A stretch of DNA of 64,000 bases, from assembly GCF_008033235.1 (NCBI RefSeq), contig NZ_CP042432.1, forward strand, positions 62,001 through 126,000, written 5' to 3'. The position numbers and the translations under genes are program-made. Under the pieces are notes generated by a model. The model saw nothing but the letters and a program-made list of their open reading frames with translations. It ran no database searches and was not told the DNA's origin. Shown here one piece after another: positions 5,551-35,508 of this stretch (the stretch's first letter is position 1; each line of letters begins with the position of its first letter). The stretch comes from Anseongella ginsenosidimutans (GTDB taxonomy: Bacteria > Bacteroidota > Bacteroidia > Sphingobacteriales > Sphingobacteriaceae).

Positions 5551-8500
5551 TTACCTTTTCTCCGGCTGCGGCGGGGCTATATAAGAAGGTTTGGCTGTTT
5601 TCAGCTCTTCCAGTACTACTTCTACCGCTTTCTTCAATTGAGGGTCTATCCCGTTTGCAAGATCTGTGGGGTCTTCGTTCACTTCGATATCAGGCTCAAT
5701 GCCGTGGCCTTCGGCAAACCAGGTGCCATCCGGATTATACATGCGGAAGGTTGGGGCGGTCACTCCTCCCCCGTCGATGAGGCTGGGAGCGCCTGTGATC
5801 CCGATTAATCCTCCCCAGGTACGGGTGCCAATCAGCGGGCCCAGCCCGGCCTTGCGGAAATAATCCGGAAAGGCATCCCCTCCGGAGCCCGACCAGCCGT
5901 TGATCAGCATGGCCTTGGGGCCGAAATGAGCTACCGGCGGCCATGACCAGTTCTTCCCGTCCCGCACATCCCAGTAAGCCAGCGCAGGCCGGTTCAGCAA
6001 TTCAATGAAACGATCGGGGATCTGACCGCCGTTGTTGAAACGTTCGTCAATGATCATCCCGGGCTTATCTGTCTGGGCATAAAACATGCGCACCAGTTCT
6101 TCCTGGCCGTCCGTGGCAGTGCTGGGGACGTACACATACCCGATCTTCCCGCCGGAAGCTTCTTCTACATATTTCCGGTTCTTTTCTATCCATGCCAGGT
6201 TGCGCAGGCGCGTTTCAGAACGCAGTGTTTCCACATAGACCTTGCGCGCGCCCTTTTCTTCCGGCTTACTGTTTACGGTCAGCTCCACGGTTTCTCCAGC
6301 CAGGCCGGCAAAAGCGCCCCAGGGATCAGAATAGGTGGTAAGCGGCACACCGTTCACGGCAAGGATATAATCGCCTACTTCCACTTTTACCCCCGGTATA
6401 TCCAGCGGGGAACGTACTTCCGTATCCCATGGCGCCGCTCTGATAATCTCTTTTACGCGGTATGCTCCATTTTCAAAAGCCCAGTCAATTCCCAGGTAAC
6501 CTACGGAAACATGAGCGGTGCTTTCAAGGTCGCCGCCGCCCCGGTAGGTATGGGAAGCGTTCAATTCACCGATAAGTTCGCCGATGATGTAGTTTACATC
6601 GGTCCGGGTACAGGCATTGGCAATTAGCTGGCCGTAATGTTTGCGCAGTCCTTCCCAATCCACGCCATGCATGGACGGATCATAGAAAAAGTCCCGCTCT
6701 ATTCTCCAGGCGTCGGTAAATACCTGCTGCCATTCTTCGCGGGGCACCAGGCGCATCTGCATATCTGAGAGGGGCACGGTCTTATCCAGGCTTTTGCCGG
6801 AACCCATGTCAATCACTCCCATGCGCTGCCATTTCCCGGTCAGTATCTTTTTTCCATCGGCCGAAAGCTGGAAGAAGGACACTTCCCCGATAATCCTTAC
6901 TTCTTTCTCCTCTTCCAGATCGAAATAATAAAGAGCGGCATCGTCCTCTTCCGAACCGGAATTAGGATAACGCATATAAATCACCTTTCCTTCAACGGCG
7001 GCCAGGTCCCCGATATTCCCGGCATCCACCGGCAGGATCACCACCCGGTTTTCCATTCCTTCCAGGTCAATGATCGTCCGGTCTTTGCCTTCTTCGTCCT
7101 TTTTGCCTTCTTCGCCCTTATCGCCTTTTTTATTGTCCTTGTCTTCCTCTTTCTTTTTGTCCCCCTTCTTTTCATCCTCATCCGTCTTTACCGTTACCGT
7201 ATCGTTCTCCGGCAGCAGCGGCGAAGCAGTCGTATCCGCCAGGGGAATCAGTCCGATCTGCGTGGAATTAGTATATATCCAGGAATTGTCAAAATTACTG
7301 TATAGCGGTTTGAACCGCCTGTTTGTGGTAAAATAGAGGTATTTTCCATCAGGAGAAAAAACGGGGGAATCGTCGCTGTAAAAGCCGGACGTCACCTGGT
7401 GTATTTCCGATTGACGGGTATCAAACAGGAAAATGGCCTGCTGCCGGTTATCCAGTCCGTTGCTGTACGTAAGCCAGCGGCTATCCGGCGACCAGCTTAC
7501 CGAAAAATTATCCAGGCTGCCCTGGTACATCCACCGGCCCTTCCCGGCGGGCGTAACTTTTCCGCTGCTGATATCCAGCACGTTGATTTGCATGGTTTGA
7601 TCAACAAAAGCAACCTTCTTACTGTCCGGCGACCAATAGATATGATAACGGTATCCTTCACCCAGGTTACTCACTTTCTTCGTTTCCCCCGAGACCTGGT
7701 TATAAAGATAGAGTTCGTATTCGCCGCTCTTATCGCTCCACCAGGCAATGTTCTTTCCGTCCGGAGACCAGGCAGGATACCGTTCGGCGGTCCCTGAAGA
7801 CCGGCTGAGATCAATGGTCACCCCCTTTTCGGCCGGCAGGCTAAAGATCTCTCCGCGCGCCCCGGCCAGCACCCGCTGCCCGTCAGGTGAAATACTGACG
7901 TCCGCCAGGTAATCCTGCACATTCACCAGCCGGGGTTTCACGCTCTCCATGTCATCCACGATGCTGATGTTCACTTCTTTATATTCTGCTGTTGCCAGGT
8001 CCAGCAGGTAAATGCTTCCGGCAGCTTCAAATACCAGCTCTTCAGGCCCGATTGCCGGGAAATGCACGTCAAAATCCTTAAAATTAGTAAGCTGGCTGTG
8101 TTCCCGCGTATTTGTGTCGTATTTCCAGATATTATAGCGTTTCTCCGGGCCTTTATCTGAAATATAGTAAATGGAACTCCCGTGCCACATCGGAAGTTCG
8201 TCATTGGCATCGTTGGAAGTAATATTCTCAGCTTCCCGGCTCTGCAGGTCGAACACATAAATATCGGCTGACCATCCGCCGCGGTAGCGCTTCCAGGTCC
8301 GGAACACCCGGCTTTTATAGGTATAAGCCATTTTTTGACCATCCGGAGAAAGGCTTCCGAATTCGGCGATAGTTATAGGAAGCTGCTCGGGCAGGCTGCC
8401 CGTTGCCTTGATCTTATAAAACTGGTTAAAACGCTGTTTGCCGCTGTGCATGGACGAGGCGAAGAAAAGATGTTCTCCGTCAGGGTACCAGTCCTGCACG

Positions 8501-27765: not shown

Positions 27766-30999
<3,234 letters not shown>

Positions 31000-31045
31000 A
31001 GCCCCTGTTTTATCGCATGAAAATACGAAAAATCCCGGGGCGGGT

Positions 31046-32659
31046 TCATTGCTTTCCGCGGTTTAACCTCCTCGCCGAAAGTTTCTTCCAAATGTTATGA
31101 GCTAAATTGATCTCTTTTTTTGTCAATCCGTAATGCTGCTTTAGAATTATTTCATTCGTAATTTTCAAAACATCGTCTATATCGCCCTTACTACGCATGA
31201 GTTGGTCGATTTGCGGAAGCAATCTGGCGCAATCTTTATGATAAGGAAGCAATATTTTTTTTGCTTCATTTGGCATCAACTCCAAAACTCCTCCCCCGTG
31301 ACTCCTACCGCATACTTCCGTAAATGCAAGGGACAGCGAATTATAATAGCTCGCTGTAAACGCTTCTATATTCGTTTCAGCCTTTACGAAAACTCGGTGC
31401 ATTGTATCAGTGGTGTATGCCTGCGCTTGGTTAATTATCAATCTAGGATACAGATTGTTCCTTCGAATGAAAAGTGCATCCGAAATTTTCAGGGATGGGA
31501 CCACAAACCAGTCATCACGAATACTTGTTTTATAGCCCTTATGAATTCCCATGTTTTCACCTTGAGCGATATATTTTACTGCGCCGTTCTTTTTGTTCAG
31601 ACTTTTGCTGTCAGGGAAGACGAGTAAATGCGCCTTGGCTTTTGAAAACTTGTTTCTCTTCCAATCGCTTTCAGTGAAGACGACACTGTTTACCTGAACA
31701 CTTCGACCGACCATTGGCTTTGCATAATCGTGCAAGTCATATTCTTCAATAGTCGTCAATGGAACAGTAAAGAAGCTGTTGGCGCCAGTGGTAATCCCTA
31801 CTTCAACATTTGCATATTTTCCAAGTAACGGAATGTCCCTGCGCTCAGCAATACTTTCTAAAAAGTCAATCTCTTCCTGTTCTAAAAAATAAAATGTCCA
31901 TTTATTACCCCTAAAATCAATCTTCTTTTTTGGACTTTTCAAACGAGCGACGTCAAGGGCCTTTAATTCACTCGCATTATGCAATTCAATATGTTCAATA
32001 TTGTGTTCTTTTGATCCGTTCTTTTCACATAATAACAAAACAACTTCCTGCTGAATGTCGGGGAATACCAACTTTTCAAATGAGATGATATTAATCTTAT
32101 TGTAAAAATGAGCGATAAAATTCCTCAATTGCTGAGCATATGAAACCTGTAAAATTTCTGCAGGTAAGACGAAACCAATCTTCCCTCCCTTATCTTTCAA
32201 TAGAAGCGATGAACCAATAACGAAGGAAACCCATGCATTTGTAAGCTTTGAATAAGTCAGTCCTGCTTTGATAAAAATGTCACCCGCTTCAACTTGTTGC
32301 ATTTTATCAAAGAACTGATACCGGATATAAGGGGGATTCCCCACAATCAAATCAAATCGTTGTAGCGTATTATTGCAGTAGGCATGAAAATCCGCGTTAA
32401 TAACTTGTTTACTATGCAGATCAGTTTTGTTTGCCTTTATAGCTTCGGCTTCGTCAAATTCAATCGCAGTGATTGATTTGTATTTCAGTTGATGCTTTTG
32501 TAACTGTTCCAAAAAAACGCCATCGCCACAACTTGGCTCTAGAATGTCATAGTCATTGCTACCATTAACGCCCCAGCGCAAAATAAATTCTGCTATCGGT
32601 TCAGGCGTGTAAAAGCCGCCTCTTAATTTTTCAGCCGATGCTTCTGTGATCAACTTCAT
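31046..32659 (-). CDS. Adenine-N6 DNA methyltransferase of a restriction-modification system
   Basis: A 537-residue gamma-type methylase similar to M.TaqI/Eco57I-like enzymes. Motif X lies at 14-26 (GGFYTPEPIAEFI), motif I for AdoMet at 40-50 (LEPSCGDGVFL) and motif IV NPPY at 108-111. The C-terminal half (about 260-510) is the likely target-recognition domain, with WKRNKFSKAKAHLLVFPDSKS-type stretches. It would methylate adenine in the recognition site to protect it from the nuclease encoded upstream. Start ATG is at 32659, two bases after the HTH gene. Codon use is AT-rich compared with the flanking housekeeping genes, as expected for acquired DNA. Confidence 0.88.
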   Translation of the reverse strand: MKLITEASAEKLRGGFYTPEPIAEFILRWGVNGSNDYDILEPSCGDGVFLEQLQKHQLKYKSITAIEFDEAEAIKANKTDLHSKQVINADFHAYCNNTLQRFDLIVGNPPYIRYQFFDKMQQVEAGDIFIKAGLTYSKLTNAWVSFVIGSSLLLKDKGGKIGFVLPAEILQVSYAQQLRNFIAHFYNKINIISFEKLVFPDIQQEVVLLLCEKNGSKEHNIEHIELHNASELKALDVARLKSPKKKIDFRGNKWTFYFLEQEEIDFLESIAERRDIPLLGKYANVEVGITTGANSFFTVPLTTIEEYDLHDYAKPMVGRSVQVNSVVFTESDWKRNKFSKAKAHLLVFPDSKSLNKKNGAVKYIAQGENMGIHKGYKTSIRDDWFVVPSLKISDALFIRRNNLYPRLIINQAQAYTTDTMHRVFVKAETNIEAFTASYYNSLSLAFTEVCGRSHGGGVLELMPNEAKKILLPYHKDCARLLPQIDQLMRSKGDIDDVLKITNEIILKQHYGLTKKEINLAHNIWKKLSARRLNRGKQ

Positions 32660-32661
32660 TA

Positions 32662-32976
32662 TCAGAGATTACTTCGGTTTAAATACTTGATTTTTTGTTC
32701 TGCGGCTTTTAAAACCTCAATTGATAAATCTTCCTCATCCATCACCTGATAAACCACTTTGTCGCTCAGAAATGCTATAAGTAGTTCCTTCTCGCTCGCT
32801 TTAAAATACCTGGCAAATTTGTCAATCAACTGCTTTGTTGGTTTACGATTATTTTTCTCAATCTTACCCAGTGTAGATGTATCAATATTTAGTGCCTCCG
32901 CCACCGCTCGTAACGGAAGATTTTTCTTTTCTCGAAGTCTCTTTACGGTTTCACCAAAGGATTGCTCGAGTTTCAT
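32662..32976 (-). CDS. XRE-family HTH regulator, controller protein of the R-M system
   Basis: A 104-residue protein starting at ATG 32976 (MKLEQSFGETVKRLREKKNLPLRAVAEALN). It has a helix-turn-helix at about 20-42 (LRAVAEALNIDTSTLGKIEKNNRKP) and a short helical tail. An upstream TTG (32997) would place the start inside the palindrome, so ATG 32976 is preferred. It precedes the methyltransferase by two bases and the palindrome directly precedes it. This is the arrangement of autoregulating controller (C) proteins in type II R-M systems. Unusually it leads the methylase and not the nuclease. Confidence 0.85.
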   Translation of the reverse strand: MKLEQSFGETVKRLREKKNLPLRAVAEALNIDTSTLGKIEKNNRKPTKQLIDKFARYFKASEKELLIAFLSDKVVYQVMDEEDLSIEVLKAAEQKIKYLNRSNL

Positions 32977-32999
32977 ATTTGGACTACTTTTGTCCAAAT
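32977..32999. promoter_or_regulatory. Operator-like inverted repeat (C-box) at the controller gene start
   Basis: ATTTGGAC (32977-32984) and GTCCAAAT (32992-32999) are perfect reverse complements separated by TACTTTT. On the minus strand the repeat ends at the base immediately before the ATG of the controller gene. Binding there would block transcription or translation start of the controller-methyltransferase pair. Confidence 0.72.
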
Positions 33000-33068
33000 A
33001 TAAACACTATAAATGAGATACCAACATTTATAAAAGGAAGAGTTCTCAACAAATTAACATTGTTCCAA

Positions 33069-34253
33069 CTATTCAATCTTAAGAGTGAATTCGTTTTTCT
33101 TTTTCGTTGTAAACAGAAGCGCATGTTTTCCAATCAAGCTATTTTTTGCGATCACTTGTTTGGCTACTCCCCAGCTAAGATGGGTCACGAAATTATTCTG
33201 AGTATAGGTTCTAGTATTCGTTCGGGTATCATGTGAAATCATTAGTTCAAATTTCCCCATATCTTTCCCGTTAATTATGATATTGAAGAAAGCCTTTGCC
33301 CTTTCATAATGTGACGAAGTAGGGCTGGTATCCTTTTTCCATTTCAACCTGGAGAACACTCTATCTCTGAAATAATGTCGTTTGTCAATACCGCGTGTTT
33401 TTCCTTTTTTAAAACCCATGGAGCCGGTTGGGTTTGTTTTTAGTCCCTCAGGAATATTTAGATCCCTTTTAGTTAGTTTACCACTTTCCCAAACCAACTC
33501 GCCCTTTAAAGTAATTTTATCACTAGCACTGATTTTGGCTTTCGTCACTGCAGGTTGTCGTTTTTTTGTCCCCCTAAACGCCGTTGGAATTTTTGCAGTT
33601 GCTCGGTTTGGAAAAATCTTGGAGATTACACGTTGAACTTCCGGTGTTTTTGCATCTCCGCTTTTATCTTGTGCAGCTCTCCGTTCTTCTTCCGTTGGAA
33701 CAATCCCGGCTTTAATTAAGTCAGCTATAACCTTCTTCGACAACTTCTTTACGTTGGGGTCCTTAAAGTTAAAGAGACCCTTAAAATATTCTTTCAGTTG
33801 CTTAACAATCTCCCTTTCGACTTTTTTTGAATTATCAATACTTATTAGCAAAGATGTTTCAACATTTGTAAAAAGCCCCTGAGAGGTTAGATTTGAAGAG
33901 CCTACAATCAGTTCAGTTCTTCTTTTACCTTCAAATAGGTAAATTTTTGGATGAAAAATTGTCACACTCGGCTGATAGAAGATGTAGGCCCTGATTCCCA
34001 AGCCCAAAAGTTCTTCCAACGCCTCTTTAGACGTTCCTTTCTGATCAACTCCTGTAACTATTGTAATAGTCTTAAGATGCTTCTTGGCTGCTTGTATATC
34101 CTTCGAAAGTCCCCCTATACCAGCTTGGCTTGCAAACGCAGAAATGCCAGTAAAAGAATGAAAATCTTCATCGGCAAAAAATTTTATAAGTTGGTATCCG
34201 ACCGAAAACTCCGATTTTACTTCAAACCCCTGGCCGAGTAACCTTATACTCAT
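33069..34253 (-). CDS. PLD-family restriction endonuclease (BfiI/NgoFVII-like)
   Basis: A 394-residue protein. The N-terminal half (about 15-135) has a single phospholipase D-type active site: H101-P-K103 in IFHPKIYLFEGK and the later GSSN at 118-121, with GLFTNVE following. Single-site PLD nucleases such as BfiI act as dimers, need no metal ion, and cut beside their site. The C-terminal region (about 215-390) is basic, with FNIIINGKDMGKFELMISH near 330, and may be a DNA-binding domain comparable in role to the B3-like domain of BfiI. I see no sequence proof of that fold. The gene lies upstream of the controller-methylase pair on the same strand with its own promoter region. Confidence 0.82.
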   Translation of the reverse strand: MSIRLLGQGFEVKSEFSVGYQLIKFFADEDFHSFTGISAFASQAGIGGLSKDIQAAKKHLKTITIVTGVDQKGTSKEALEELLGLGIRAYIFYQPSVTIFHPKIYLFEGKRRTELIVGSSNLTSQGLFTNVETSLLISIDNSKKVEREIVKQLKEYFKGLFNFKDPNVKKLSKKVIADLIKAGIVPTEEERRAAQDKSGDAKTPEVQRVISKIFPNRATAKIPTAFRGTKKRQPAVTKAKISASDKITLKGELVWESGKLTKRDLNIPEGLKTNPTGSMGFKKGKTRGIDKRHYFRDRVFSRLKWKKDTSPTSSHYERAKAFFNIIINGKDMGKFELMISHDTRTNTRTYTQNNFVTHLSWGVAKQVIAKNSLIGKHALLFTTKKKNEFTLKIE

Positions 34254-34267
34254 AAGCTACACCTTCC

Positions 34268-35508
34268 TCAGGCCATTGCCAGTTTCTCGCTGTCGTAATG
34301 GCCTTCGCTCAGCTTGCGGGCTACGGCGCTGAAAGCTTCCAGCGTTTCATTCACGTCTTCCAGCGTGTGTACGGAAGTAGGAATAAGGCGAAGCATCAAT
34401 TGTCCTTTTGGAATGACCGGATAGGTAACAATAGAACAGAAAATGCGATAGTTCTCCCGAAGGTCAATGATCATATTCAGCGCCTCATGAAGAGAGCCCT
34501 TCATGAAAACAGGCGTAACACAACTATTTGTATTGCCAATATCAAATCCCTTTTCCCGGAGGCCGCTCTGCAGGGCATTCACAATGTCCCATAGCTGGTC
34601 CTTGAATTCGGGATGGTTCCGCAGCAATTCGAGCCTTTTATGCAGGCCTGATACCATGGGCATGGGAAGCGCCTTGGCAAAGGTCTGCGAGCGCATATTG
34701 TAGCGCAGGTATTCAACGACGTATTCATCAGCGGCAACAAAGGCGCCGATCCCGGCCATTGATTTTGCAAAGGTTCCGAAATATACATCAATACCTTCTA
34801 TACATTCCTGCTCTTCACCGGTACCGGAACCCGTTTTCCCCAGGGTGCCGAAGCCATGGGCGTCATCCACCAGCAGACGGAAATTATACTTTTTCTTTAG
34901 TTCAATGATCTCTTTCAGCTTACCCTGGACACCGGACATGCCGAAAACACCTTCGGTAATCACCAGGATACCGCCCTGCGTACCTTCAATTAACTTCTCC
35001 GCACGCTCAAGCTGCTTCTCAAGGCTTTCGATATCATTATGTTTGTACATGAAACGTTTACCCTGGTGCAGGCGCACACCGTCCACGATGCAGGCGTGTG
35101 ACTCCCCGTCATAGACGGCCACATCATGGCGACTCAACAAGGTATCTATGATGGAAACCATTCCCTGGTACCCGTAATTCAGCAGAAAAGCATCCGTTTT
35201 ACCAACGAAATCCGCCAGGGCTTTCTCCAGGCTTTCATGATTACTGGTATTCCCCGACATCATACGGGCCCCATGGGATAAGCCAGGCCGTGTTCCCGGG
35301 CGCCTTCTTCGTCCGCCTTTCGCACTTCCGGATGATTGGCCAGGCCCAGGTAATTATTAAGGCTCCACACGATGTGTTCCTTCCCCCGGAACATCATCCT
35401 GTTGGCTATTGCTCCCTCCAGCTTAGGAAATGCAAAATAGCCATGAGCGAATGTTGAATGCTGGCCAATGGGGCCTCGGTCCCGCCTGATCTTCTCGAAG
35501 ATATCCAA
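34268..35508 (-). CDS. Alpha-oxoamine synthase (serine palmitoyltransferase/KBL-like), frameshifted in this sequence
   Basis: Frames 35260-35508 and 34268-35263 join into a 413-residue PLP enzyme if one G is added in the run whose plus-strand complement is C 35269-35272. The junction then reads AYPMGARMMSGN where the uncorrected frame stops after AYPMGPV. Features are the glycine-rich NNYLGLANHPEV near the N-terminus, VDDAHGFGTLG with the PLP-pairing aspartate, and FGTFAKSMAGIGAF with the Schiff-base lysine. The family condenses an amino acid with an acyl-CoA. In sphingolipid-making Bacteroidota this type is often serine palmitoyltransferase, while 2-amino-3-ketobutyrate CoA ligase is the main alternative. 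It lies just downstream of ftsZ but behind a terminator hairpin. Confidence 0.82.

Follow-up and report, generated by a model that had tools for sequence, protein, structure and literature searches.

What kind of restriction system is encoded by the nuclease gene, small regulator gene and methyltransferase gene that lie together in a 64,000-nucleotide stretch of Anseongella ginsenosidimutans DNA (the window), and which of them does the regulator control? The reading favored here, at a probability of about 0.8, is that these genes, called R, C and M below, form a complete type II restriction-modification cassette that was gained by horizontal transfer, that encodes a BfiI-type PLD nuclease and in which R lies outside the control of C.

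An inserted block of three genes

All three frames are open and intact and lie on the minus strand of the window: R (33069..34253), a PLD-superfamily restriction endonuclease of 394 aa; C (32662..32976), an XRE/HTH_3 regulator of 104 aa with an ATG start; and M (31046..32659), a gamma-class N6-adenine DNA methyltransferase of 537 aa. The stop codon of C is 2 bp ahead of the start of M. Upstream, the cassette is flanked by the gene for an alpha-oxoamine synthase (34268-35508, minus strand) and on the other side by acpH-ligA (28307-30999). The first-pass annotation, which was made from the letters and their open reading frames, had given the same frames, strands and coordinates. It had also described an AT-rich island between these flanks, and base composition, ORF coordinates and an empty site in a same-genus genome (G401) agree on this. 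Here, the GC content is 0.36-0.41 across the block and ~0.50 on either side. At the corresponding locus of G401 (L053), acpH starts at 2021 and the synthase gene ends at 2086, about 64 bp apart with no gene between them, and this empty site sets the extent of the inserted block at 31040..34267 (strand-neutral). Because of the GC dip, the empty site and the lack of any match to M in 30 related genomes, the block is concluded to be an insertion. Neither target-site duplications nor direct repeats were found at its borders, where the longest common word is 8 nt. A phage origin was considered and rejected: there was a single weak phage match to R, and viral contigs gave 0 matches to the R of locus L017 and three weak ones to C.

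The active site of R

R matches PF13091 PLDc_2 (7.8e-10, above cut-off) and carries H101-P-K103 together with GSSN at residues 118-121. The catalytic domain comprises about residues 1-170 and includes H101, K103, N121 and E132, which are invariant in an alignment of 21 R sequences. The catalytic residues of BfiI are His105, Lys107, Asn125 and Glu136 (PMC4081073), and their spacing (0, +2, +20, +31) is the same as in R. Purely by homology to BfiI, we infer that R probably dimerizes via its PLD domains to form one metal-independent HxK active site per dimer, and that it would cut outside its site in the type IIS manner.

The remainder of the protein includes a putative DNA-recognition domain (about residues 250-394), through which R would read its target. 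This half has invariant residues of its own in the 21 sequences, namely W255, G277, F295, R296, F300, W305, E317, G333, H341, Q352, N354, T357 and W361.

Expression of R in the window

The start of R is separated from the stop codon of the synthase gene by only 14 bp (34254..34267, minus strand), and the sequence just upstream of this gap is synthase coding sequence. In 10 of 15 relatives, R has its own TAnnTTTG box, which is free of operator. With a gap of just 14 bp behind the synthase gene, the window has no space for the promoter found in most relatives. R is without a recognizable promoter of its own here, a feature absent from the earlier description of the locus, and is probably expressed by read-through from the upstream oxoamine synthase unit.

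The missing promoter could also mean that R is silent in this genome, leaving a cassette that consists of a methylase and an autorepressor. The synthase gene on which read-through would depend is itself frameshifted: one base is missing from a GGGGCCC run near 35260, ~1 kb upstream of R, and this splits the gene. This frameshift may be a real pseudogene or a sequencing or assembly error; the synthase gene of G401 (L053) is in frame and does not have the deletion. A silent R is nevertheless unlikely, as its frame is intact, the catalytic and the invariant C-terminal residues have all been kept and an SD-like AGGAAGG sits 5' of its start.

The controller and its operator

C matches PF01381 HTH_3 (7e-11), as expected of the XRE controller that had been proposed. 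Its start is the ATG at 32974-32976 and not the upstream TTG at 32997; in an alignment of 15 orthologues, the relatives begin at the homologous ATG. At this start lies a perfect 10-bp inverted repeat, ATATTTGGAC-N7-GTCCAAATAT (32975-33001), which includes the putative operator TTTGGAC-N7-GTCCAAA (32978..32998), a single dimer site. An equally good palindrome occurred in 70 of 20000 shuffles of the local region. A search of the whole genome, allowing up to 1 mismatch, found no operator copy besides the one at C, which argues against C regulating a broader set of genes here. The TTTGGAC-N7-GTCCAAA sequence is also present 0-5 nt before the start of C, free of mismatches and once per locus, in all 15 R-C-M loci, the window included. 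The palindrome is therefore not a chance occurrence, being both unique in the genome and mismatch-free in every one of these loci, and the operator that the first-pass annotation placed at the ATG of C holds.

The housekeeping promoter of Bacteroidota has TAnnTTTG as its -7 element and TTTG as its -33 element (PMC7366714). A C-M promoter of this form is predicted at 32995..33024 on the minus strand (TTG - 19 nt - TATATTTG), and its -7 box shares TTTG with one arm of the operator. A TAnnTTTG box overlaps the operator in 15/15 loci, and in 11 of these TTG is found exactly 19 nt further upstream. Since a bound dimer would cover both the -7 box and the presumed start region, repression would be the natural outcome, and since C and M are only a few bases apart or overlap, the two genes are expected to be throttled together. 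In addition, the R-C gap of most relatives has an extra conserved block ahead of the C-M promoter's -33 box; in the window this block is at ~33036-33051 (about TTTGTTGAtAAnT).

C would then act as an autorepressor whose dimer binds one palindrome in front of C and M. On entry into a new host, M would be made strongly, and the build-up of C would subsequently throttle it. The earlier proposal that C may repress M thus gains comparative support from the position of the operator over the -7 box in 15/15 loci. No operator was found upstream of R in the 15 R-C-M loci, and R would stay outside C control throughout. Most likely, as judged from these sequences, C acts as a repressor of the C-M unit and has no control over R, a logic that is close to that of Kpn2I. 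In that system, C represses M from a controller site located where the C gene begins, and R is read from a C-independent promoter (PMC6237814). The pairing of a controller with the methylase is consequently unusual, as had been noted, but with Kpn2I it has a precedent. The predicted likeness lies in a methylase that is strong early and limited later, with R outside the C loop. The difference lies in the layout: Kpn2I has divergent C and M genes and a site within C, where it works as a roadblock, whereas in the cassette the two genes are collinear and the site is over the -7 region of their promoter. In principle, C could also affect R via antisense or read-through transcription.

Classical controllers such as those of PvuII and EcoRV activate restriction, or activate and then repress it. 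If C were of this kind, R would be delayed until C had accumulated. C resembles these regulators in being a small XRE/HTH protein in a restriction-modification cassette, adjoining R and with a palindrome at its own gene, and the operator core in most relatives is similar to GACT...AGTC. In contrast, classical C-boxes use two dimer sites (PMC6237814) and lie upstream of the promoter, whereas C has one palindrome, situated over the C-M -7 box and start region, and the 90 nt upstream did not yield the second dimer site that an activating C-box would have. Furthermore, C follows R in all 15 loci and is without a site near R; the C-before-R operon of classical controllers was not seen. An activating role for C is thus improbable, and repression of C-M by C, with R independent, remains the preferred reading.

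The fold of R and comparison to known nucleases

The solved structures nearest to R in sequence are those of BfiI (2c1l) and SauUSI. BfiI matches R in a phmmer search (2.5e-5), with similarity detectable in the PLD domain only. An AF2 model of R, made using the 21-sequence alignment, has a pLDDT of 81.9, while single-sequence prediction gave 37. The best Foldseek match of this model is BfiI, and VIA gives Z values of 20.3 for SauUSI, 17.2 for BfiI and 12.7 for NgoAVII. Here, the alignment to SauUSI is over the PLD domain, and those to BfiI and NgoAVII are along the entire chain. Together, the PF13091 match, the BfiI-spaced catalytic set and the PLD fold of the model substantiate the PLD nuclease with a single HxK and GSSN that had been described from the sequence. 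Both Foldseek and VIA reach R residue 394 against BfiI and NgoAVII, but with an rmsd of 15-17 A over two domains, and a B3 sequence model found no match in R. The position of the C-terminal half and the whole-chain match, with its poor superposition, suggest that this half is a B3-like recognition domain.

It is very unlikely that R is instead an accessory PLD nuclease (compare DrmC of DISARM or the type IV enzyme SauUSI) acting with M or another factor, because the PADLOC DrmC, ZacB, PbeA and SauUSI-type models, which match the PLD part of R about as well as the type II REase models do, match mainly over the common PLD domain, while R has a conserved C-terminal domain of its own and a full-length alignment with BfiI and NgoAVII, and no helicase or other neighbor is common to the relatives beyond R-C-M.

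BfiI and BmrI are type IIS systems that recognize ACTGGG and have a PLD nuclease. R, taken as a BfiI-type nuclease, resembles BfiI in its N-terminal PLD domain, whose four catalytic residues and their spacing are identical, in its size, in having a putative C-terminal recognition half and in its modeled structure over the whole chain. The BfiI system has two strand-specific methylases, whereas there is one M.Eco57I-type adenine methylase and a C gene here. NgoAVII and CglI combine a PLD + B3 nuclease with an m5C methylase and an ATPase N-protein. R shares with NgoAVII the architecture of a PLD domain followed by a C-terminal domain, and its structural match to NgoAVII has the Z of 12.7. In contrast to both systems, the methylase is an adenine and not a cytosine enzyme, and no ATPase or helicase adjoins the cassette, which in the window is flanked by the oxoamine synthase and acpH-ligA genes.

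The methylase

M would methylate adenine in the R target on host DNA. It matches M_Eco57I_C PF22837 (2.2e-33; 116 bits against a curated cut-off of 27), Eco57I PF07669 (2.8e-13) and N6_Mtase, as well as the PADLOC type II MTase PDLC03267 over its full length (3.2e-197). Its motifs are in the gamma order, with X as FYTPEPIAEF, I as EPSCGDG and IV as NPPY, followed by the C-terminal M_Eco57I_C domain, and they are invariant in 16 sequences. Consistent with these matches and this order, M is a gamma-class adenine methylase, as had been assigned. By its domains M is, more specifically, of the M.Eco57I kind, which had not been pointed out. In E. coli, Rhizobium and Neorhizobium, relatives of M on plasmids adjoin large type IIG enzymes; in the cassette, the PLD nuclease stands in place of such an enzyme.

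M.Eco57I is a companion methylase that reads a degenerate sequence, CTNNAG, so that an asymmetric site can be modified on both strands by one enzyme (PMC3874165). BfiI uses two methylases, one per strand (PMC4267653), and each cassette, in the window and in relatives, has one methylase gene. By analogy, a degeneracy like that of M.Eco57I could explain how a single adenine methylase serves a BfiI-like nuclease. Three known parts, a PLD nuclease, an Eco57I-type companion methylase and a putative methylase-repressing controller, are joined in one compact cassette, with a circuit that is legible from sequence as one operator, one promoter and an R outside the loop.

Relatives in other genomes

The cassette is a member of a small family that is conserved in Bacteroidota. 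The R-C-M order and strand are the same in 14 other loci, 13 of which (all Bacteroidota records) came from scanning a single genome for each species and one (L002) from a sample of the window's phylum. One further R is at a contig end (L009). In the phylum sample, an R relative with E < 1e-8 was present in 5 of 395 genomes, including the window's own. The relatives are mostly metagenome assemblies. Burkholderia, Acidovorax, Chitinibacter, Roseobacter and two other sampled genomes of the phylum have R and M adjacent and convergent, and no C homologue was found next to these pairs.

Distances covary within the cassette, with r 0.89 for the R N-domain against M and r 0.89 for C against M, as expected of partners inherited together. 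For M, C and the R N-domain, close relatives show dN/dS values of 0.03-0.12, a sign of purifying selection. These values argue that the genes have been kept as a working unit. The genes that flank the cassette in the scanned relatives are unrelated and differ by locus. In two of them, a gene for a TIR-dynamin protein (L008, 9223-11895) and one for a DUF5682 protein (L014, 9233-11521) adjoin the cassette, hinting at defense islands.

Replacement of the C-terminal half of R

Type II enzymes are normally thought to be blocked from changing specificity, as R and M must change together. Here, the comparison of three loci, each represented by one assembled contig, is relevant. Between L007 and L017, identity is 98% for M, 93% for C and 91% for the R N-domain, but just 34% for the C-terminal domain of R. 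Nucleotide identity falls from ~75-95% to ~33-53% between L007:6756 and 7196 and is back to 92-95% at 7254, and dS is 2.3 in the R C-terminal domain versus 0.4-0.6 elsewhere. L019 has a third, equally distant version of this domain, and its M is about 86-90% identical to that of L007. Relative to L007, the replaced stretch is at about 6760-7190 in L017 and about 6750-7150 in L019. The distance of the R C-terminal domain correlates with that of M at r 0.79 without these two loci and at r 0.05 when both are included. These breaks in identity, dS and correlation indicate that R has exchanged its putative recognition half in L017 and L019 under a nearly unchanged M.

The new halves may recognize the same site, in keeping with the invariant C-terminal residues that they have in common, or R in L017 and L019 may no longer be matched to M. 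More speculatively, the recognition domain may be a module that can be swapped while M stays constant and, being M.Eco57I-like and degenerate, protects a broad set of sites; this is possible but doubtful. If true, R could gain different recognition domains within the M-protected set without killing the host, and L017 and L019 would be natural cases in which R alone has switched specificity. In any case, replacement of the putative recognition domain under an almost constant M provides a testable case for type II specificity change.

The two halves of R also occur in other settings. A plasmid of Lysinibacillus capsici encodes a free-standing 144-aa protein (L062, 3995-4429) that corresponds to the R C-terminal domain alone, and its gene is divergent from an M relative and adjoins an integrase gene. 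On alphaproteobacterial plasmids, proteins with a stretch that weakly resembles the R C-terminal domain are encoded next to type IIG systems (L083, 5173-6327, which matches no Pfam family, and L084, 3887-4297). Finally, in another genome of the phylum sample (L086, 3841-5700), a related PLD N-terminal domain is fused to repeated helicase-associated (HA) domains.
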